Origin: Marispirochaeta sp. | GTDB lineage: Bacteria > Spirochaetota > Spirochaetia > JC444 > Marispirochaetaceae | Assembly (NCBI RefSeq): GCF_963668165.1 | Contig: NZ_OY764209.1 | Location: 434,001 to 498,000, forward strand | DNA: 64,000 nt | Direction: 5' to 3' | In this document: piece by piece, positions 44,524-53,883 of the stretch | Layout: the number at the start of each line of letters is the position of its first letter | Numbering within the stretch: position 1 is the first letter of the stretch | Notes under the pieces: model-generated | The model's database searches: none | What the model was told of the DNA's origin: nothing | The model's input: only the letters and a program-made list of their open reading frames with translations | Made by a program: the position numbers and the translations under genes

Positions 44524-45387
44524 ATGAAAGGCGTACATAAAGCGGCAGTGTTCATCTTTTTAGCTATCCTGATCGGAGGTTTTCAGGTTTACGGCCTTGA
44601 TGTGCATGAGGAAATAATATATCCGGCACAGCGTTTAAAAGGCGCCCCATACTCCTTTGGCAACGAGGGCCCCCGGGCTTTTGACTGTTCCGGTCTGGTC
44701 TATTATCTCTATAAACCGCACCTGCCTTCCATTCCCCGAACCTCCCGGGATTACAGCCGTTACGGCAGCCAGGTGGGTATCAACGAGCTGCTTCCCGGCG
44801 ATCTGCTCCTGTTCGCCACCACCAATAACCGGGGAATCGTCTCCCATGTTGCCATCTACATTGGTCAGAAGTCGGTTATCCACGCTGTTTCCAACGGGCC
44901 GGAGACGGGTGTCATTGTCTCCAGGGTCGATTCCGGCTACTGGCGCCGGACTTTTCATTCGGCTCGCCGTGTATTTGATACCGCAACCCAAAGTACACAA
45001 AAAGAGCAGACAAGCATTGAGTTTGAGCGGGGACTGTATACCGGCCCCTTAAAAGACGGTGAACCTTCAGGCACCGGAACCATGCGCCTGAAAAACGGCG
45101 ATACCTACCAGGGAGAATTCCGGGACGGACTCTTCCACGGACAGGGCACCTACACCTGGAGCAGCGGAAAAAGCTATACCGGCAGGTTCGAGAAGGGCGA
45201 GATCGTGGAGACGGAGAAAACCGCCGGAAAACCCGAAACCTACATGGAAGAAAAGGATTCCCCCTGGGACAGCTGGGACGGAGAAGTGTACGGAGACTTC
45301 CGGGAGTGGCGGGAGCAGGAGCAGTCCGCTTTTGAAGCCTTTAAAGCCCGGGACAGGGAAGGAACCGCGGGAAAAATGTCCCGATAA
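44524..45387 (+). CDS. NlpC/P60 peptidase fused to MORN repeats
   Basis: 287 aa. Signal peptide MKGVHKAAVFIFLAILIGGFQVYG, then an NlpC/P60 domain with catalytic Cys in RAFDCSGLVYYLY, His in SHVAIYIG and third residue His in SVIHAVSNG. It is followed by two to three MORN repeats (YTGPLKDGEPSGTGTM, YQGEFRDGLFHGQGTY, YTGRFEKGE) and a charged tail. Exported cell-wall D,L-endopeptidase; the MORN part may anchor it to membrane lipid or a protein. Divergent from mutM. Confidence 0.88.
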   Translation: MKGVHKAAVFIFLAILIGGFQVYGLDVHEEIIYPAQRLKGAPYSFGNEGPRAFDCSGLVYYLYKPHLPSIPRTSRDYSRYGSQVGINELLPGDLLLFATTNNRGIVSHVAIYIGQKSVIHAVSNGPETGVIVSRVDSGYWRRTFHSARRVFDTATQSTQKEQTSIEFERGLYTGPLKDGEPSGTGTMRLKNGDTYQGEFRDGLFHGQGTYTWSSGKSYTGRFEKGEIVETEKTAGKPETYMEEKDSPWDSWDGEVYGDFREWREQEQSAFEAFKARDREGTAGKMSR

Positions 45388-45437: not shown

Positions 45438-46205
45438 ATGAAAACAATGCAGATAAATCGGCTGAAAACCATGTTTGTTTTGGTACTCCTGTTTGCAGCT
45501 GTCTCAGTCTCTGGCCAGCAGCAGTACCGCAGCATTACCGCTTTAAAATTCAACTACTACACCGATGACAGATCTTCCCTGGAATACGAGGAAGTCTTCA
45601 TCATTCCTCTGGTTAAGCAGTACTATCTGATAACCGCGGTACTCGGAAACACCAGCGATTTCGAAGCCGCCCTGGGGGGAAAAATCGGTCTGGCCTTTGA
45701 CCTTCCCGGCTTGTACTACGGCGAAGCAGCCTATACCTACGAACGGAAGTTCGACGATCCGGCGGAGTCATGGTTAAATACCCTCTACGGGTCAGTCAGT
45801 TATGAAACCGGCGGCATCAGGGCAAGTTTGAGCCTTAGCGGAGAGCTTTCGGATGAAACCCGGGGGATAAAACTCTCGCCGGGATTAAACTACCTGGTCA
45901 GACCGGACTTGGAACTCTATGCAAAATACTTTTCCGCCTCCAACCTTTACGATGACGACCAGTATTTTAACCACGCAATCTGGACGGGTACCGAGTACGA
46001 AATCCTTCCAACCATATGGCTCCACGCAGGTGGTACTTTCGGTACGGTTTACGAGCCGGATAATTCATACGAAAAATGGTCCGCCATTGCAGGAATACGC
46101 ATTCTGCCGATACCGGATTTGACGATTCGTTACCAGTTTGAATACGAGGTAAATCCGCTGTACGAGATTGTCTCCAATGGAATCGTGGCGGATTATAAAT
46201 TTTAG
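45438..46205 (+). CDS. Probable outer-membrane beta-barrel protein
   Basis: 255 aa. Signal peptide ending VSGQQ, then alternating aromatic/hydrophobic strands (YYGEAAYTYERKF, LNTLYGSVSYETGG, IRASLSLSGEL, LELYAKYFSASNLY, LTIRYQFEYEV) and a terminal Phe (NGIVADYKF), the BAM-recognised beta-signal. About 10 strands. No named family; function could be a porin or a secretion channel. Follows the NlpC/P60 gene by 50 bp and ends 4 bp into the opposing GH16-like gene. Confidence 0.7.
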   Translation: MKTMQINRLKTMFVLVLLFAAVSVSGQQQYRSITALKFNYYTDDRSSLEYEEVFIIPLVKQYYLITAVLGNTSDFEAALGGKIGLAFDLPGLYYGEAAYTYERKFDDPAESWLNTLYGSVSYETGGIRASLSLSGELSDETRGIKLSPGLNYLVRPDLELYAKYFSASNLYDDDQYFNHAIWTGTEYEILPTIWLHAGGTFGTVYEPDNSYEKWSAIAGIRILPIPDLTIRYQFEYEVNPLYEIVSNGIVADYKF

Positions 46206-46918
46206 TTTTGGAAGGGAGTAAAGGTGAACTCCGATACCCGTAAAACCTGGGGTTCTCCGCTTTGGGGGGGCGCACCCCGAAACAGCCAGAAGTTCAGATG
46301 CAGGTAAGCCGTACCGGGATCGGGAACCGTCTCGCCGGGCCAGATAAAACGAGCCACCTCCCGTTCCCATCCGCCGCGTCCAAGGGCATAGGAGGAGAAT
46401 TCGACCCTGTCCGGCATCCACTCTATTCTGTGCAGAGAGCGGGAGCCAAGTTCTTCAAGAGGAAAGACCGATTTGTTTTCTTCAAGCGTGTAGGGCTGTA
46501 CAGTATAGTTTCCCCCGGGATGCCCGGGATCTGCCCAGCGGGCAAACTCGATATCCAGTTCCCGGTAGAGGGGAGGAGCAAGATGATCATAGGTAAAAAA
46601 ACCGAAGACAGCCTGGGGGTCAAGTTTTGCAGGATCTCCTTCAACAATGATTTCGTATCTGCCGTAACCCAGGGCTTCAGTAAGATGCAGCTCGGCGGAG
46701 CTCCAGGAACCGTTTCGCTGACTTATCCGCAGAACCAGCCGTTCCCGGGCATCAAGGTACACATTGTCAGGCAGAAAGATATTCGGGCCGGGGGATTTTC
46801 CCGCGGGAGCATCGGACACCAGCCACCGACGCGAGCTGAAGTCCAGAAAGAAATCTTCGGAGAAGGTATCCATGCTTGCCCCTGACAGAACTATGCATAA
46901 AATAAGCAGACGTAGCAT
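46202..46918 (-). CDS. GH16-like exported glycanase / concanavalin-fold protein
   Basis: 238 aa. Signal peptide MLRLLILCIVLSGASMDTFS, then a jelly-roll domain starting with ..FSSRRWLVSDAPAG.. and containing YRELDIEFARW, which fits the GH16 catalytic motif E-x-D-x-E, plus LHRIEWMPDRVEFSSYA, the usual late GH16 strand. GH16 enzymes cut beta-1,3/1,4-glucans, carrageenans or agar. Shorter than average but all core strands seem present. It is divergent, with 57 bp between its start and the STAS gene of the glycan operon, so the two may be co-regulated. Confidence 0.72.
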   Translation of the reverse strand: MLRLLILCIVLSGASMDTFSEDFFLDFSSRRWLVSDAPAGKSPGPNIFLPDNVYLDARERLVLRISQRNGSWSSAELHLTEALGYGRYEIIVEGDPAKLDPQAVFGFFTYDHLAPPLYRELDIEFARWADPGHPGGNYTVQPYTLEENKSVFPLEELGSRSLHRIEWMPDRVEFSSYALGRGGWEREVARFIWPGETVPDPGTAYLHLNFWLFRGAPPQSGEPQVLRVSEFTFTPFQN

Positions 46919-46975
46919 TACCGGGAAGTGTACCGTTTCCCTGAATTCTTCTCAATCCGGTAGAGGAAAAGCAGG

Positions 46976-47308
46976 ATGACAACAGAACATATTCAGGGAG
47001 TACAGGTTATAAAGCTGGATACCCCCCAGATCGATGCTCTGAATTCCGAAGAACTCAAGCAAAACCTCCTCGATGAAACAGGAGACACATTGCGGATTGT
47101 GATTGATCTGTCGAATGTCCGCTTTGTCGACAGTTCCGGACTTGGTGTCCTTCTGGGATTGCTGCGCAAAATGCATGAGAAAGGCGGTAGAATAGCCTTT
47201 TGTGCGCCCCGACCTCCAGTTCAGGCGCTTTTTCGTATGGTACGGCTTGCTGATATTGTCACAATCTACGAGAACAGGGACGATGCTCTTGCCGCAGTTT
47301 CCGCGTAA
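46976..47308 (+). CDS. STAS-domain anti-sigma factor antagonist (SpoIIAA/RsbV type)
   Basis: 110 aa, one STAS domain. The phosphorylatable Ser is in VRFVDSSGLGVLLGLLRKM, flanked by LRIVIDLSNV. Unphosphorylated STAS proteins bind RsbW-type kinases and release the kinase's partner. GAGGAAAAGCAGG precedes ATG 46976. First gene of the four-gene coupled operon; its 3' end overlaps the next gene by 26 bp. Confidence 0.92.
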   Translation: MTTEHIQGVQVIKLDTPQIDALNSEELKQNLLDETGDTLRIVIDLSNVRFVDSSGLGVLLGLLRKMHEKGGRIAFCAPRPPVQALFRMVRLADIVTIYENRDDALAAVSA

Positions 47309-49076
47309 CAGACACGTGCTTCTTCTCGGTTCCGTACTGCTCCTGGTTTCCGCGTGCGTTCTGCCGGTACTTTACTTTAGCCCCGGATTTTTTGTCCAGG
47401 TTTCTGCCGCGGCTGTTTCGGCAATCCTCGTAAGTGTATTTCTTCTCCTGCTGCACTCGGCAATCTATGATCTATTTCCCCTGAACCATCCCTCCTTTGC
47501 AGGTTTTGTGAAAAAAGAAGATTCCATCATTCTCCTGCTGGATAAAAGAGCAGAGATAATCTGTTACGCCGGCCCGAAGGTGGAGGACTACTTTACAGCG
47601 TCTGTCCGTGCCGGCAAAGCAAGCAGTACCCTTTTGCACAGATTCTCACCCGACGAACGCGAGACACTGGTATCCGAATTGTCCCGATTGCAAGGGGGAG
47701 AAGAAGGCAGAACCAACGAGCTCAAGCTGGTCCGTCCCGACAAGGATGAGGCATGGCTCTCGATTCGTTTTGAAGGCATTCGCAGCAGACGGGGAGTACT
47801 GAAGCGAATAGTCTTTGTGTGCAGGGATGTAACCGCACGGAGGGATGCCCAGTTGCGGCTGGTACAAGCACGGGAGTACGAGGTCGAGGTGGGCGCCCGT
47901 ATCCAGCAGTCTCTGCTCCTGGGACAGCCGGAAACATCGTATTCCGGGATGCAGATAGGAGCTTTTACCCTGCCCTCCCAAAGAATTGACGGCGATTTTG
48001 TGGACTTCTTTTCCGGCAATGATTCCAGTATAACCGATTTTGTGCTGGGTGATGTAATGGGCAAGGGAGTCCCGGCGGCACTGCTCGGAGCAGCAGCCAG
48101 GACCGAGTTAATGAGGTCACGCCTGGGTAATAGCAGTTCAAACTCCCTGCCCCTGCTGAGCAGTGTCATAGCCAACGCAGAAGCAAATCTTTCTGTCGAA
48201 CTGCAAAAATTCAACTCCTTCGTGACCCTGATATACGGACGCCTGGACAGACAGCAGAGGCTCTTCGAGTTCATCGATTGCGGTCACACAAGCATAATCC
48301 ATTACGATGCGGTACACCGTCACTGTTGGCTCCTCAAAGGATCGAATATGCCCCTGGGTTTTGTAAATTCCCAGGATTTTCAGAGATACATCATCGATTT
48401 GAACATGGGAGATATTCTTTTTGTCTACTCCGACGGCATAACAGAAGCGGTTAACAGTGAAGGGGAGCTCTTTGGCGAGGAGCGGCTGATGCATCTTGTA
48501 CGGTCCTCTGCCGAACTTGATGCTGAAGATCTTCTGCAAAAAATTAAAATGATTACCTTTGCCTATTCCGCTGGAGCCTTCCGGGACGATGTAACTGGAA
48601 TCGCGATTAAGCTGGACCATACGGACAACGAACTGGAGATAAAAACCGCGACCGAAACATTTCCTCAAAGCATGGAATCCCTGCGGGATATTCGCGCATT
48701 TTCCCGTAAACAGCTCAGCGCCTGCCGCTCGGTTAGCGGCAGCGGGAATGAAGGCCTGTGCGATACAATCGAACTTGTTGCAGGCGAAGCAGCCTCGAAC
48801 ATCCTGCGTCACCAGGAGAGCGGGAGCGGAACCACCCTTTCCGTTTCCATTCGCACCTGTGTAAAATGGATTGCCGTGAGTATGGAATACCGGGGCAATT
48901 CCTATGAGTGGTACAAGGTATCTGATCCCGATGTAACCAGCTATCAGCAGAGCGGCTACGGGCTTTACCTGATGGAGTCTTCCATGGATTCAGTCACCCT
49001 TGAACAGGGCGAGGATGATCGGCTGCGTCTTGTAATGATGAAACACATTGAAAGAACCGGAAATGAGGAGCAATGA
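47283..49076 (+). CDS. Membrane PAS-PP2C (RsbU/SpoIIE) phosphatase with C-terminal RsbW-like ATPase domain
   Basis: ~597 aa from ATG 47283 (GTG 47202 would overlap the STAS gene by 107 bp). Two N-terminal helices (VLLLGSVLLLVSACVLPVLYF, AAAVSAILVSVFLLLLH), a PAS-like domain (~75-185, ending FVCRDVTARRDAQ), then SpoIIE/PP2C with metal Asp residues in IDGDFVDFF, LGDVMGKGVPAALLG, YSDGITEAV and FRDDVTGIAI. Residues ~460-597 are an HATPase_c_2 domain (LCDTIELVAGEAASNILRH, SGYGLYLMESSMDSV). One chain thus holds both the phosphatase and the kinase-like arm of a STAS partner switch. It overlaps the next gene by 4 bp. Confidence 0.88.
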   Translation: MLLPQFPRNRHVLLLGSVLLLVSACVLPVLYFSPGFFVQVSAAAVSAILVSVFLLLLHSAIYDLFPLNHPSFAGFVKKEDSIILLLDKRAEIICYAGPKVEDYFTASVRAGKASSTLLHRFSPDERETLVSELSRLQGGEEGRTNELKLVRPDKDEAWLSIRFEGIRSRRGVLKRIVFVCRDVTARRDAQLRLVQAREYEVEVGARIQQSLLLGQPETSYSGMQIGAFTLPSQRIDGDFVDFFSGNDSSITDFVLGDVMGKGVPAALLGAAARTELMRSRLGNSSSNSLPLLSSVIANAEANLSVELQKFNSFVTLIYGRLDRQQRLFEFIDCGHTSIIHYDAVHRHCWLLKGSNMPLGFVNSQDFQRYIIDLNMGDILFVYSDGITEAVNSEGELFGEERLMHLVRSSAELDAEDLLQKIKMITFAYSAGAFRDDVTGIAIKLDHTDNELEIKTATETFPQSMESLRDIRAFSRKQLSACRSVSGSGNEGLCDTIELVAGEAASNILRHQESGSGTTLSVSIRTCVKWIAVSMEYRGNSYEWYKVSDPDVTSYQQSGYGLYLMESSMDSVTLEQGEDDRLRLVMMKHIERTGNEEQ

Positions 49077-51061
49077 AGGCGTATCAGGTAGACAAGGATA
49101 ACGGGATTACCAGTATCGACGGATCAAAATCGCTGCGTCTGGTCTCCTGTTATTCCTATATAATTCAAACAGCTGCATCCATGGTGCTGATCGATCCGGG
49201 ACCGGCGGAGGATTTTCCCTCCGTTTTCGGGCAGGTGTCGTCCCAGGGGTCAATTGAAAAGCTGAGCTATATCCTGCTTACATCAGAATCCCCCACCGCT
49301 GCCTCGAGTCTTCCGCTGTGGCAAAAGGCAGGATTCAGCGGAAAGGTTGTACTTTCATGGCAGGCCTATATCAGTGCCCGATATTATGCTCCCGGTATGG
49401 ATTATCATACCATCAGCTCACGCAATGATATAATTCCGTTGGCTGACGGGCGTAATCTCCGATGCATCCCCCTGCCCGGGCTGCCCACAATGGGCGCCCA
49501 GGTCTACTGGGACCCCGCCAGTGCAAGCCTTTTTTCCGGAAGTCTCTTCGGCACCCTGAAGGGAGCAGAAAACGCGGAAACTGTCGTTGACGGCCCACAG
49601 CTCCAGGGACGCATGGAATCCTACCATGAATTATTTCTGTCCAGGAGCCCGGCTAAAGAAGAGATTGAACTGCTTAAGGATCTGGGGCCCGGGAGAATAT
49701 GTCCGCACCACGGGAAGCCCATTGTACAGGACCTGTCTGTTCTCTTTACCAGACTGCTGCAACAGAGTACGGAAGATTCTGCCCCGGTTTCCCGGGAAAA
49801 TCCCGCTTTGCTTCGAAATACAATTCTTCACCGCATGCATCAGCATCTGAAGGCTCTTTTCCCACGGAAAGAAGTGGAAAATGTTTCTGGATCCATCATG
49901 GAGAACAAGGAAGAGGGGCTGACTCCGGAGGAGTTTAATGCCTTTTTCGAACGAATCCTCCACGCCAAAGGATACACATGGCTCGCCCTGATAGATCTGG
50001 AACTCAGAAGATTGTGCCGGAATACAGGCATTGCTTTGCCGGAGTTGTACCACGCGCATGAAAAAGAAATCGCCGGGGGCATGCATGCTTTAATCAAGGA
50101 GGTCCGAAGTCTCCGGGATTCGAATTTTCAGCTTCAGCAGTCAATTATAGAGGCCAGCGATGATCTTTTGCGAGATAAAACGACCGGTCTGTATAATGAG
50201 TCGTTCTTCAGCGAATATATTGCCAGCACCCTGCAGGGGAAAACTGAGAGCAAAGACGCCGTACTGTTTATTCGCCTTGATGAAATCAAAACCCTGAATG
50301 CCCGCTTTGGTGCCGAAGCGGGGGACACAACACTGAAAAATCTCTCTTTTTTTCTGATGAACAGAAAGCGGGAGTCCGCTGTCTTTTTTCGCTTAAACGG
50401 TCCAGGCTTCGCAGCATATCTGCATGATACCGGAAAGGAAGGCGCAGTAGAGTATGCCGAAGAACTGAAGACCCAGGTTGAACGTTCAGACGAGTTCATA
50501 ACCTCCATATCAATCTCTGCTGCGGTTATAGAACTCAATGAATTGTTTTTATCAGCGGTCCCCGCCGACCGTTTTTTTACCGAGATGATGAAGCTCGCCA
50601 AGGAACGCACAAAGATCCTCGAACGCATGGGTCCCGGATCAATCTGTGCAAGCTCCAGACTTACCCGCTTTCAACGCAGCCGGGGAACAATTCTTCTGAT
50701 AGAAAGCAGTAATTTTGAAGCGGAGATCTATAGAAAGATGCTCGAACACGAGGGATTCGAAGTTTTTCTCGAGCACCAAGGCACGAAAGCCCTGGAGCAG
50801 GCCGATACGATTCGTCCGGATATAATTATAAGTGAGATCTTTGTTTCGCAGATGGACGGTTTTCAGATACGCCGGCGACTGCTGGACTCTCAGGACCTGA
50901 AAGAAATCCCCTTTATTCTGCTGTCCCGGGAAAAGAGCGCGACCTCGGTACAGCGGGGATTCGAAATGCGGGTATACCGTCATTTCAGAAAACCGGTTAT
51001 GCCGGCAGAACTTATCGGAACAGTACAGAGTCTCATCGAAATGAAGGAAAGAAACGTATGA
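49073..51061 (+). CDS. Three-domain receptor/scaffold: degenerate MBL-fold (ODP-like), degenerate GGDEF, degenerate receiver
   Basis: 662 aa. N-terminal ~230 residues follow the metallo-beta-lactamase/flavodiiron layout (SYIIQTAASMVLIDPGP, SLFSGSLFG, ICPHHGKPIV), but the HxExDH site reads TSESPTAA and FSGD reads FSGS, leaving only one Glu and one His. Residues ~360-520 are a GGDEF fold (LLRDKTTGLYNESFF) whose active loop is RLNGPGF. Residues ~545-660 are a receiver (ILLIESSNFEAEIYRKMLEHEGF) with the phospho-Asp position changed (IISEIFVSQMDGF) while the Lys in FRKPV is kept. Likely a non-catalytic ligand or protein-binding hub controlling the next gene's synthase. Overlaps it by 4 bp. Confidence 0.75.
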   Translation: MKAYQVDKDNGITSIDGSKSLRLVSCYSYIIQTAASMVLIDPGPAEDFPSVFGQVSSQGSIEKLSYILLTSESPTAASSLPLWQKAGFSGKVVLSWQAYISARYYAPGMDYHTISSRNDIIPLADGRNLRCIPLPGLPTMGAQVYWDPASASLFSGSLFGTLKGAENAETVVDGPQLQGRMESYHELFLSRSPAKEEIELLKDLGPGRICPHHGKPIVQDLSVLFTRLLQQSTEDSAPVSRENPALLRNTILHRMHQHLKALFPRKEVENVSGSIMENKEEGLTPEEFNAFFERILHAKGYTWLALIDLELRRLCRNTGIALPELYHAHEKEIAGGMHALIKEVRSLRDSNFQLQQSIIEASDDLLRDKTTGLYNESFFSEYIASTLQGKTESKDAVLFIRLDEIKTLNARFGAEAGDTTLKNLSFFLMNRKRESAVFFRLNGPGFAAYLHDTGKEGAVEYAEELKTQVERSDEFITSISISAAVIELNELFLSAVPADRFFTEMMKLAKERTKILERMGPGSICASSRLTRFQRSRGTILLIESSNFEAEIYRKMLEHEGFEVFLEHQGTKALEQADTIRPDIIISEIFVSQMDGFQIRRRLLDSQDLKEIPFILLSREKSATSVQRGFEMRVYRHFRKPVMPAELIGTVQSLIEMKERNV

Positions 51062-53883
51062 ACATGCCCCTTGTTCTGCTCTCGGGTTTTCTTCTAATCA
51101 ACCTTGCGGCCCTTTACGGCTTCTTTCTTTATAAACAACATCAAAAGCAGGAGTATCGCCGTACCCTGTCTATTCGACAGATTATAAGCGCAGTGGCTTT
51201 TTCCCGGCAGGAAACCAGTCACCGCGCCATCAAGATGCTGCGCAGAAACCGCTGGATCGCACTAAGACAGCTGGCATCGGTCCATGGCAGTCTGGTTCTA
51301 CAGCAGGAAGAAAGAGAGCGGCTCTCTGATTTTTTCGACAAAGCCGGAATTTCCCGCTATCTTCTGCGCAACCTCGATTCCCGGCGGACCTGGAAGCGTT
51401 ATGCCGCTGCCCTCTACCTTCGCTTCCTGCTCGATCCATCGCAGCGTGATCCTTTAAGCGCAAGATTACACCGGGAAAAATTGAGTCATATACGCATTGC
51501 TCTGGTCAAAGGGCTGTTGACGGCAGAGACTGACACGGGCTTTGACGCAATTGCAGAAAGTCTCTCATGGGAAGGCGATTATGCGCGGTCGGTAGCCTCG
51601 ATGATGCGCATTGCCGGGTACCGCTATATAGGCTGGGCCAGACGCCGTCTGGATTCTTCCGACAGCCGTTATAAGCGGGCCATCCTCTATGGTGCTGCGG
51701 TCCACACCACTGAATGGCTTACCGACTTTGCTAAAAAGATGCTTTCCGACCCCGATCCCCTGGTGCGGGAGGCAGCGGCAAGCTGTTCCAATGTTTGTCC
51801 GGAGATTCTGGTTTATCAAAATATACCCACCTCGGACAACTATATTCGCGGACTTGCAATTCGGGCCGAGGCCCGCAGATCATTTCCCCTGGATCTTCCC
51901 CGGTTTCTCTGCTATTTCGATGAAGAACAGACTTTTATGCCGGCCCGGAAAGGATTACAGGAGTATATATCCCGCCACCTCGAGGAAATCGAGACCCTGC
52001 TGGACCTTCTTGAATCAGGACTGCCCCCGGAGCAACAGCGGGGCGCAGCCCTCAGTCTTATCGGGCGGCTGCCGTTTCTGCTTGCTAATCGCACTTCCAT
52101 TGAGCGCATAGCTCCGGTAATCAACGAAGCTGTTGCATCAGGGTACAGTGCATCAATAATCTCGTTTCTTAACCTGAATCGTGATCCGGCACTGCAGACA
52201 AACCTCCTGCACCATCTGCGTCCCCTGGCCCACAGCATGTCCGGTTTTCGGGAAAGCTGTCAGCATTTTCTCTCTTCTCCAATTCTGAAAGAAATGGGCC
52301 TTGGGGAAAAGCTCATGGAGAAAGATCTGCCGAGAACACCCCTGGGATCCAGGGACCGGGCCATTCTCGTTATGCTGCTGGTCAGTATAGTCACCATTCC
52401 CTGTGTTCTTCTGTACAATGCTTACAGCAACAGCACAGACAATTTCTCCCTGGTCTCTTTTTTCAACTACAGTATACACACCTTTTCCGCAGTCTTTGCC
52501 TGGTACGCAGTCACCCTTAACAGCATCTATTTTGCCTTGCTTGGTTTCTCGGCAGTAAATCTGATTGACCAGACGCGATATTGGAACATCCATGACCAGG
52601 AATTTCTCTTTACCCCGGGAGTTGTTCCATCTGTATCCATAATTGCCCCTGCTTATAACGAAGAAAAAACCGTCATAGAAAGCGTAAATTCTCTGTTGAC
52701 CCTTGTGTATCCCGATTACGAGGTTATTATCGTTAATGACGGCTCAAAGGACGGCACCATAGATATCCTGCAACAACACTTTCATCTTAGCAGGGTCGAC
52801 ATGACAGCGGAGGGGGGCATACATACCGCTCCGGTGCGCGGCATATATCGGTCGCCTCTGAACCAGCGCCTTCTTGTTATAGACAAAGAAAACGGAGGAA
52901 AGGCCGATGCCCTGAACTGCGGCATAAATCACGCCGGCAGAGAATACATCTGCAGTATAGATTCCGACTCATTGCTGGAACCGGACTCGCTTTTGCGAAT
53001 GACGACCGAGGCTATGGTCGGCAAACATGAAACAATCGCCATCGGCGGTAATATCCTGCCGGTCAACGGCTGTGAGGTTGATCACGGAGCCCTGCAGAAT
53101 ATCCACCTTAGTAAAAACCGCTATGTACGACTGCAAACCATCGAATATCTGCGCTCTTTTGTGGCAGGAAGACTCGGCTGGGCGAAAATAAACGCCCTGC
53201 TTATTATATCCGGAGCCTTTGGGCTCTTTCGCCGCACCAGGGTCATGGAAATCGGCGGGTACCTTACAGGCCGGGGCATTCACCAGCGGGACACTGTCGG
53301 TGAAGACATGGAACTTGTTGTTCGCCTGATCCGTCACATGGGAGGCATCGGACAAGCCTGTCGGGTTGCTTATGCCGCGACAGCAAATTGCTGGACAGAG
53401 GTTCCGGAAAAGCTATCAGGACTGTATAAGCAGCGCGATCGCTGGCACCGGGGACTGGCAGAGATTATGACCTACCATCGAGACATGATACTGAACCCCA
53501 AATACGGCGCATCGGGACTGCTGGCAATGACCTACTTCCTGCTCTTCGAGATTATAGGCCCATTTTACGAATTCGCAGGGTACCTGTTCCTCATTGCCGG
53601 CTTCGCTACAGGTGTTCTCTCCTCGGGAGTTTTTCTTATCATGTTCTCCGTCATTGTACTTTACGGTACCCTGATATCCCTGACATCGCTGATACTTTCG
53701 GAGAACGGTATTGTCTATTTTAAAAGTTCCGAGGTCTTCACCCTGCTAAGAATCAGCTTTACCGAAAACCTCGGCTACCGCCAGCTCATGTCCTGGATAA
53801 GGGTCTTCTCGTTGGTTGGGATGCTTTTTACAAACAAGGGCTGGCAAAAACTGGAACGAAAGGGATTTGGAAATATCGGCTGA
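51058..53883 (+). CDS. Membrane GT2 glycosyltransferase with N-terminal HEAT-like helical region
   Basis: 941 aa. One N-terminal helix (LVLLSGFLLINLAALYGFFLY), then ~400 residues of helical repeats rich in LRR.RW.ALR, AALYLRFLL, DPDPLVREAAASC (HEAT/armadillo-like). Two helices (~440-515) precede a family 2 synthase: VSIIAPAYNEEKTVIESVNSLL, VIIVNDGSKDGT, CSIDSDSLLEPDSL (DxD), TVGEDMELVVRL (TED-like), and KQRDRWHRGL (QxxRW). Three or four terminal helices follow. The motif set is that of processive synthases for beta-linked polymers (cellulose, PNAG, hyaluronan). The cytoplasmic HEAT arm is probably the regulatory docking surface. Last gene of the operon. Confidence 0.88.
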   Translation: MNMPLVLLSGFLLINLAALYGFFLYKQHQKQEYRRTLSIRQIISAVAFSRQETSHRAIKMLRRNRWIALRQLASVHGSLVLQQEERERLSDFFDKAGISRYLLRNLDSRRTWKRYAAALYLRFLLDPSQRDPLSARLHREKLSHIRIALVKGLLTAETDTGFDAIAESLSWEGDYARSVASMMRIAGYRYIGWARRRLDSSDSRYKRAILYGAAVHTTEWLTDFAKKMLSDPDPLVREAAASCSNVCPEILVYQNIPTSDNYIRGLAIRAEARRSFPLDLPRFLCYFDEEQTFMPARKGLQEYISRHLEEIETLLDLLESGLPPEQQRGAALSLIGRLPFLLANRTSIERIAPVINEAVASGYSASIISFLNLNRDPALQTNLLHHLRPLAHSMSGFRESCQHFLSSPILKEMGLGEKLMEKDLPRTPLGSRDRAILVMLLVSIVTIPCVLLYNAYSNSTDNFSLVSFFNYSIHTFSAVFAWYAVTLNSIYFALLGFSAVNLIDQTRYWNIHDQEFLFTPGVVPSVSIIAPAYNEEKTVIESVNSLLTLVYPDYEVIIVNDGSKDGTIDILQQHFHLSRVDMTAEGGIHTAPVRGIYRSPLNQRLLVIDKENGGKADALNCGINHAGREYICSIDSDSLLEPDSLLRMTTEAMVGKHETIAIGGNILPVNGCEVDHGALQNIHLSKNRYVRLQTIEYLRSFVAGRLGWAKINALLIISGAFGLFRRTRVMEIGGYLTGRGIHQRDTVGEDMELVVRLIRHMGGIGQACRVAYAATANCWTEVPEKLSGLYKQRDRWHRGLAEIMTYHRDMILNPKYGASGLLAMTYFLLFEIIGPFYEFAGYLFLIAGFATGVLSSGVFLIMFSVIVLYGTLISLTSLILSENGIVYFKSSEVFTLLRISFTENLGYRQLMSWIRVFSLVGMLFTNKGWQKLERKGFGNIG

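Follow-up and report, generated by a model that had tools for sequence, protein, structure and literature searches.

An overlap-coupled operon of STAS, PP2C-HATPase, pseudo-receptor and HEAT-GT2 genes in spirochaetes as a candidate partner switch without a sigma factor

Related systems and the layout of the locus

Several described systems share part of their components with the locus analyzed here. RsbUVW-sigma systems contain a STAS protein with a phospho-serine, and SiaABCD of Pseudomonas aeruginosa joins a PP2C phosphatase, a STAS-like target and a GGDEF protein in one operon, where the stalk of SiaD is the binding site of SiaC (PMC8457831). Control of a GGDEF partner by a STAS protein has also been described for HsbA and HsbD of P. 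aeruginosa and for BgrV and BgrR of Sinorhizobium meliloti (PMC8457831). In Vibrio fischeri SypA/SypE, which includes a PP2C/HATPase protein, the STAS output controls polysaccharide and biofilm below transcription (PMC10120452), and the PP2C/RsbW/STAS switch HmpUVW of Nostoc punctiforme is associated with a motility and polysaccharide locus (PMC8256260). The direct target of the polysaccharide-controlling STAS proteins SypA and HmpV is an open question (PMC10120452, PMC8256260).

By the defining features that were tested, the present locus lies outside RsbUVW-sigma, SiaABCD and SypA/SypE proper, and it probably works like them. Unlike RsbUVW-sigma, its HATPase domain lacks the G1 Asp, and the genome gave no cognate sigma factor above cut-off. 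In SiaABCD the target SiaC belongs to DUF1987, and SiaD is catalytically active as a cyclase, as are HsbD and BgrR; the present STAS protein, by contrast, is a PF01740 member, its operon includes a GT2 synthase and the GGDEF domain encoded there is dead. SypE carries a central REC domain and acts as a kinase, and the Syp set comes without an ODP-GGDEF-REC relay or a HEAT-GT2 protein; HmpUVW has a separate kinase, and no receptor-synthase operon is described in the passage of PMC8256260 considered. Regarding single components, the GT2 motifs are common to the processive PgaC/IcaA-type synthases, from which the present enzyme differs by its HEAT arm and a separate relay protein. The ODP domain is shared with Treponema denticola ODP, all of whose aligned ligands occur in many STAS-free relatives, but the copy studied here has lost five of the six and forms one protein with GGDEF and REC domains. 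No account of a STAS switch encoded together with both a dead GGDEF relay and the glycan synthase came up in the literature searched; to an earlier note on this DNA, too, no characterised system of this composition was known. As far as was searched, the locus is an undescribed variant of non-sigma partner switching.

The window, that is, the whole stretch of 64,000 nucleotides of a free-living spirochaete that was analyzed, contains the features collected in Table 1. Gene borders and Pfam matches confirmed the four genes, domains and overlaps given by the earlier note, all on the plus strand with consecutive overlaps of 26, 4 and 4 bp. The unit that the note delimited is overlap-coupled and conserved, but it comprises at least six genes, since the GH16-like and barrel-like genes had been omitted. 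That the four genes form one functional unit is very probable. Promoter and terminator scans, including that of the 57-bp divergent region, gave nothing better than shuffled sequences. A gene for an NlpC/P60 peptidase domain with a MORN repeat (44524-45387, plus strand) lies shortly upstream of the barrel-like gene.

Table 1. Features of the locus, with positions in the window
Feature	Position	Strand	Basis
Outer-membrane beta-barrel-like protein, 255 aa, candidate export pore	45438..46205	+	Linkage; barrel judged from sequence
GH16-like glycanase, 238 aa, divergent from STAS	46202..46918	-	Motif ELDIE, linkage, weak beta-glucanase match
Divergent intergenic region, 57 bp, likely promoter site	46919..46975	.	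Position only
STAS-domain protein, 110 aa, SpoIIAA/RsbV-like	46976..47308	+	PF01740 76 bits, DSSG motif
PAS-PP2C(SpoIIE)-HATPase, membrane-anchored, 597 aa	47283..49076	+	Pfam; start ATG 47283; 26-bp overlap with STAS
Receptor: pseudo-ODP (diiron MBL)-stalk-pseudo-GGDEF-pseudo-REC, 662 aa	49073..51061	+	Pfam; 4-bp ATGA overlap
Receptor stalk, residues 343-366, adjoining pseudo-GGDEF	50099..50170	+	STAS-clade motif; putative STAS docking site
HEAT-GT2 synthase, 941 aa	51058..53883	+	Pfam, catalytic motifs, TM scan; 4-bp overlap

Conservation and descent across spirochaetes

Loci were collected by searches of the phylum and the class, and the fetched regions were mapped with profiles built in the analysis, so that gene order, conservation and co-inheritance could be read directly. 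In every one of the 46 spirochaete loci with a readable position, the gene immediately preceding HEAT-GT2, in the same orientation, is that of the receptor. The full order STAS, PP2C-HATPase, receptor, HEAT-GT2 is found in 10 genomes (the window, L005, L067, L068, L073, L078, L085, L119, L122 and L129). A switch is located upstream in 13 mapped loci, these being the 10 complete ones together with L114 and L137, whose contigs begin inside the PP2C gene, and L118, which has STAS alone at the locus, while another part of its genome (L179) carries a STAS/PP2C-HATPase pair. A further copy of the order, L173, meets the end of its contig inside the HEAT arm. The four-gene arrangement is non-random and kept across many spirochaete families; the conserved order that the earlier note had proposed as a check was thus found, the genes being neighbours in many genomes.

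A GT2 tree (56 rows) groups the 13 switch-bearing loci in a single clade, supported at 95% SH-aLRT and with one state change, and order and coupling are retained over families f1, f4, f11, f13, f19, f21 and f64. Three of these (f4, f13 and f19) include both switch-bearing and switch-free loci, and therefore the unit was inherited or transferred whole. Most synthase homologues occur without the STAS/PP2C switch, the pair being confined to one clade of the wider receptor/HEAT-GT2 core. The linked PP2Cs lie together to one side of a weakly to moderately supported branch (63/76). A scan of the contigs with STAS returned only one true relative, L005; the match in L006, a weak 54-residue Prevotella match, was set aside. 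Outgroup loci encode REC, TPR, HEAT and GT2 as separate neighbouring genes (L089:5979-10330, L093:5406-9621 and L121:5531-10665; those of the same type in L090-L092 are partly cut or incomplete), a possible ancestral form of the system.

Related STAS/PP2C-HATPase pairs are also found away from any GT2 gene in other spirochaetes (L174-L183), which indicates that outputs other than a glycan synthase are open to the pair. STAS and PP2C-HATPase stand directly before pyruvate kinase in three genomes, all of the same genus (L178:3689-7156, L182:1340-5393 and L183:726-4896).

Decayed sites of the receptor and HATPase, and a candidate docking stalk

The receptor matched the ODP-family beta-lactamase, GGDEF and REC families of Pfam with 90, 57 and 49 bits, respectively, and the state of its active sites could be read directly. 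The MBL domain of the earlier note is a degenerate ODP oxygen-sensor domain, its nearest relative by sequence being an oxygen-binding diiron protein (6qrq). At the ligand positions the window copy has SSTPSH vs HDDHDH in T. denticola ODP. The motif GG[DE][DE]F is absent from all 45 readable receptor copies (NGPGF in the window), as is the c-di-GMP I-site RxxD, in accordance with the claim that the output is not an active cyclase; the SiaD model scored 34 bits vs a cut-off of 290. The phospho-Asp site of the receiver is occupied by Glu in 42 of 47 copies, the window included, by Asp in four and by Ala in one, while the free RECs of the outgroup loci retain the Asp. Judged by these residues, the receptor is a pseudo-enzyme family expected neither to synthesize c-di-GMP nor to take up phosphate.

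All six ODP ligands are kept in many STAS-free receptors (L070, L074, L075, L076, L079, L080, L084, L096, L116, L127, L135, L140 and L142), and in the STAS-bearing L119. Five of the six positions are intact in the STAS-bearing L118 and L122, and several STAS-free loci have lost the ligands or the entire ODP domain. A strict rule by which presence of STAS implies loss of the metal site is ruled out by these loci. Together these receptors form a natural series, in the course of which one sensory input was seemingly exchanged for another. The STAS-free loci with HDDHDH receptors are, in their own right, candidate oxygen- or NO-gated polysaccharide synthases of spirochaetes.

Adjoining the pseudo-GGDEF domain, STAS-linked receptors share the stalk motif N[FI]xLxxx[IL][IV]xxSD[DE]x[LI]xD (in short, NFxLxxxIIxxSDDxL). 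Comparison of 24 stalk residues, matched by GGDEF divergence, gave identities of 0.30 in linked vs 0.11 in unlinked receptors (20-28% bin) and 0.28 vs 0.15 (28-36% bin), and also 0.43 vs 0.34; these sequence pairs are not independent, the linked loci have a common ancestry, gaps are frequent in the aligned unlinked receptors and the signal is clade-specific. One position is Ile or Val in 14 of 14 linked copies, with Lys or Arg as the commonest residues in unlinked ones. Such additional hydrophobic residues along a helical stalk point to docking. It is quite possible, if a little short of probable, that STAS docks there, before the pseudo-GGDEF, in analogy to SiaC on SiaD; as a lead and not a proof, the stalk appears a better docking candidate for STAS than the HEAT arm, the point of contact suggested by the earlier note. 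The candidate STAS target is a product of the very operon in which STAS lies, coupled by overlaps, and a motif specific to the clade sets it apart, so it can be put to a direct test.

The STAS protein of the window matched only PF01740/PF13466 in Pfam and aligned with SpoIIAA structures (2e-12); its phospho-Ser motif, DSSG/DSTG, is retained in 10 of 11 linked copies (DSSG in the window). The following gene scored 28 bits for PAS_9, 129 for SpoIIE/PP2C and 33 for HATPase_c_2, without a REC domain by Pfam, and its product has two N-terminal membrane segments. Its PP2C metal-site motifs are intact, in the window and in the linked copies. The G1 Asp of GHKL ATPases binds adenine. RsbW and SpoIIAB have Asp at this position, whereas Tyr or Phe replaces it in 12 of 12 linked copies (YRG in the window); Tyr occurs in L173 too, and Asp is likewise missing from the unlinked PP2C-HATPase relatives that were read. 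Hence, the HATPase domain is probably a pseudokinase that holds STAS, and a kinase elsewhere, or no phosphorylation, has to be assumed.

We infer a control unit, independent of transcription, that is built into a polysaccharide-synthase system. A signal at the PAS or membrane domain would switch the PP2C, which would dephosphorylate STAS; unphosphorylated STAS would dock on the stalk just before the receptor pseudo-GGDEF, and the receptor, a cytoplasmic relay, would act on the HEAT arm by contact and so gate the GT2. Outside the cell the GH16-like glycanase and the outer-membrane barrel would act on the product. On this explanation as a whole, from switch through receptor to HEAT-GT2, our judgement is evenly balanced. 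A stronger version, which appears rather doubtful, is that a chain almost wholly of dead enzymes gates the synthase, the pseudokinase holding STAS, STAS acting on the receptor stalk and the receptor moving the HEAT arm, and that STAS replaced an older oxygen input. This replacement would fit the distribution of the ligands: the diiron set is intact in many relatives without STAS, L119 combines it with STAS, and the metal site has gone from other STAS-bearing lineages.

The locus had been taken by the earlier note for a STAS/PP2C/HATPase partner switch. In the classical form of such a switch, the HATPase would phosphorylate STAS, the PP2C would reverse it and free STAS would bind the HEAT arm, the receptor being a separate input. 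Retention in the linked copies of the N-box Glu/Asn and G2 glycines as well as of the STAS Ser speaks for such a working, and so does L118, where STAS lies beside receptor and synthase with the PP2C absent. However, the missing G1 Asp in every linked HATPase makes a kinase/phosphatase switch doubtful, HEAT and receptor co-occur mostly without STAS, so that neither was built for it, and it is in the receptor stalk that a motif changes along with STAS. Altogether, the classical switch is unlikely.

Equally little probability is given to the possibility that STAS and PP2C are a general spirochaete module with other partners in transcription or metabolism, placed in the operon for co-expression only. 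It would explain the GT2-free pairs beside unrelated genes, three of them at pyruvate kinase, but not a single clade with one state change, nor an order and coupling kept over seven families. The genome also offers no sigma-type partner: at 97% completeness and with curated cut-offs, no SigB/F/G-type sigma factor (best matches 112-134 bits vs 234) and no RsbW was above cut-off, the best RsbW match being the HATPase of the window itself. That the output is not a sigma factor, as had been claimed, agrees with this genome-wide search for an rsbW/sigma pair. Four STAS and three PP2C/SpoIIE matches were found; by inspection, the other STAS genes are one in a SulP-like transporter context, one near chemotaxis genes and one stand-alone. 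Seven other HATPases of the genome that were read retain the Asp, and most resemble histidine kinases, while L108 is possibly a free-standing HATPase of the anti-sigma type.

It is highly improbable that the receptor is the real input through binding of metal, of O2/NO or, outside the canonical site, of c-di-GMP, with STAS only tuning it, since the window has five of six ligands changed and RxxD is missing throughout, even though many STAS-free receptors and L119 keep HDDHDH.

The synthase, its product and adjoining genes

In the window synthase, Glycos_transf_2 matched with 85 bits and HEAT with a sub-threshold 19 bits; the separate-gene homologues reached 34.5 (L081) and 92 bits (L089) for HEAT_2. 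The catalytic motifs DSDS, GED and QRDRW are conserved and membrane helices are present, both features of a processive GT2, as expected from the earlier assignment of the last gene as a glycan synthase. A TM scan gave an N-terminal TM, the HEAT arm, two TMs, the GT2 domain and C-terminal TMs, a topology that would put HEAT arm and GT2 domain on the same, cytoplasmic side. Confidence was low for the AlphaFold models built from two-sequence alignments (pLDDT 42 and 44), in which the HEAT arm was all-helical with moderate local confidence at best. The best NCBIfam match was TIGR03937 (PgaC/IcaA), at 123.4 bits vs a cut-off of 422.3; so far below it, identity as a poly-GlcNAc synthase is unproven. 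The enzyme probably makes a surface sugar polymer, which would be a beta-glucan, to which the GH16 neighbours point, or an aminosugar polymer, to which the PgaC similarity points. With its fixed pseudo-receptor, it would represent an undescribed and widespread spirochaete polysaccharide synthase.

The GH16-like glycanase and the outer-membrane barrel-like protein belong to the synthase unit. Homologues of the former are present in 26 loci of the system, and its catalytic motif E[ILV]D[IVFY]E is retained in all 25 copies that reach the motif, although the match to beta-glucanases is weak and the GH16 family score sub-threshold. Barrel-like homologues adjoin the system in about 19 loci; the protein matched no Pfam or NCBIfam family and has, as judged from sequence, alternating strands and an aromatic C-terminus. 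In the window the two genes overlap tail to tail by 4 bp.

At L118:3903-6715, where STAS lies beside receptor and synthase and PP2C-HATPase is absent, a polysaccharide deacetylase gene is located between GH16 and STAS. In other loci the synthase is adjoined by membrane-anchored proteins of about 1000-1100 aa (L075:7948-11220, L079:3175-6579, L080:8062-11286, L069:11470-14501 and L073:8458-11538), a family without a Pfam or NCBIfam match that, by eye, looks like a TIM-barrel glycoside hydrolase.
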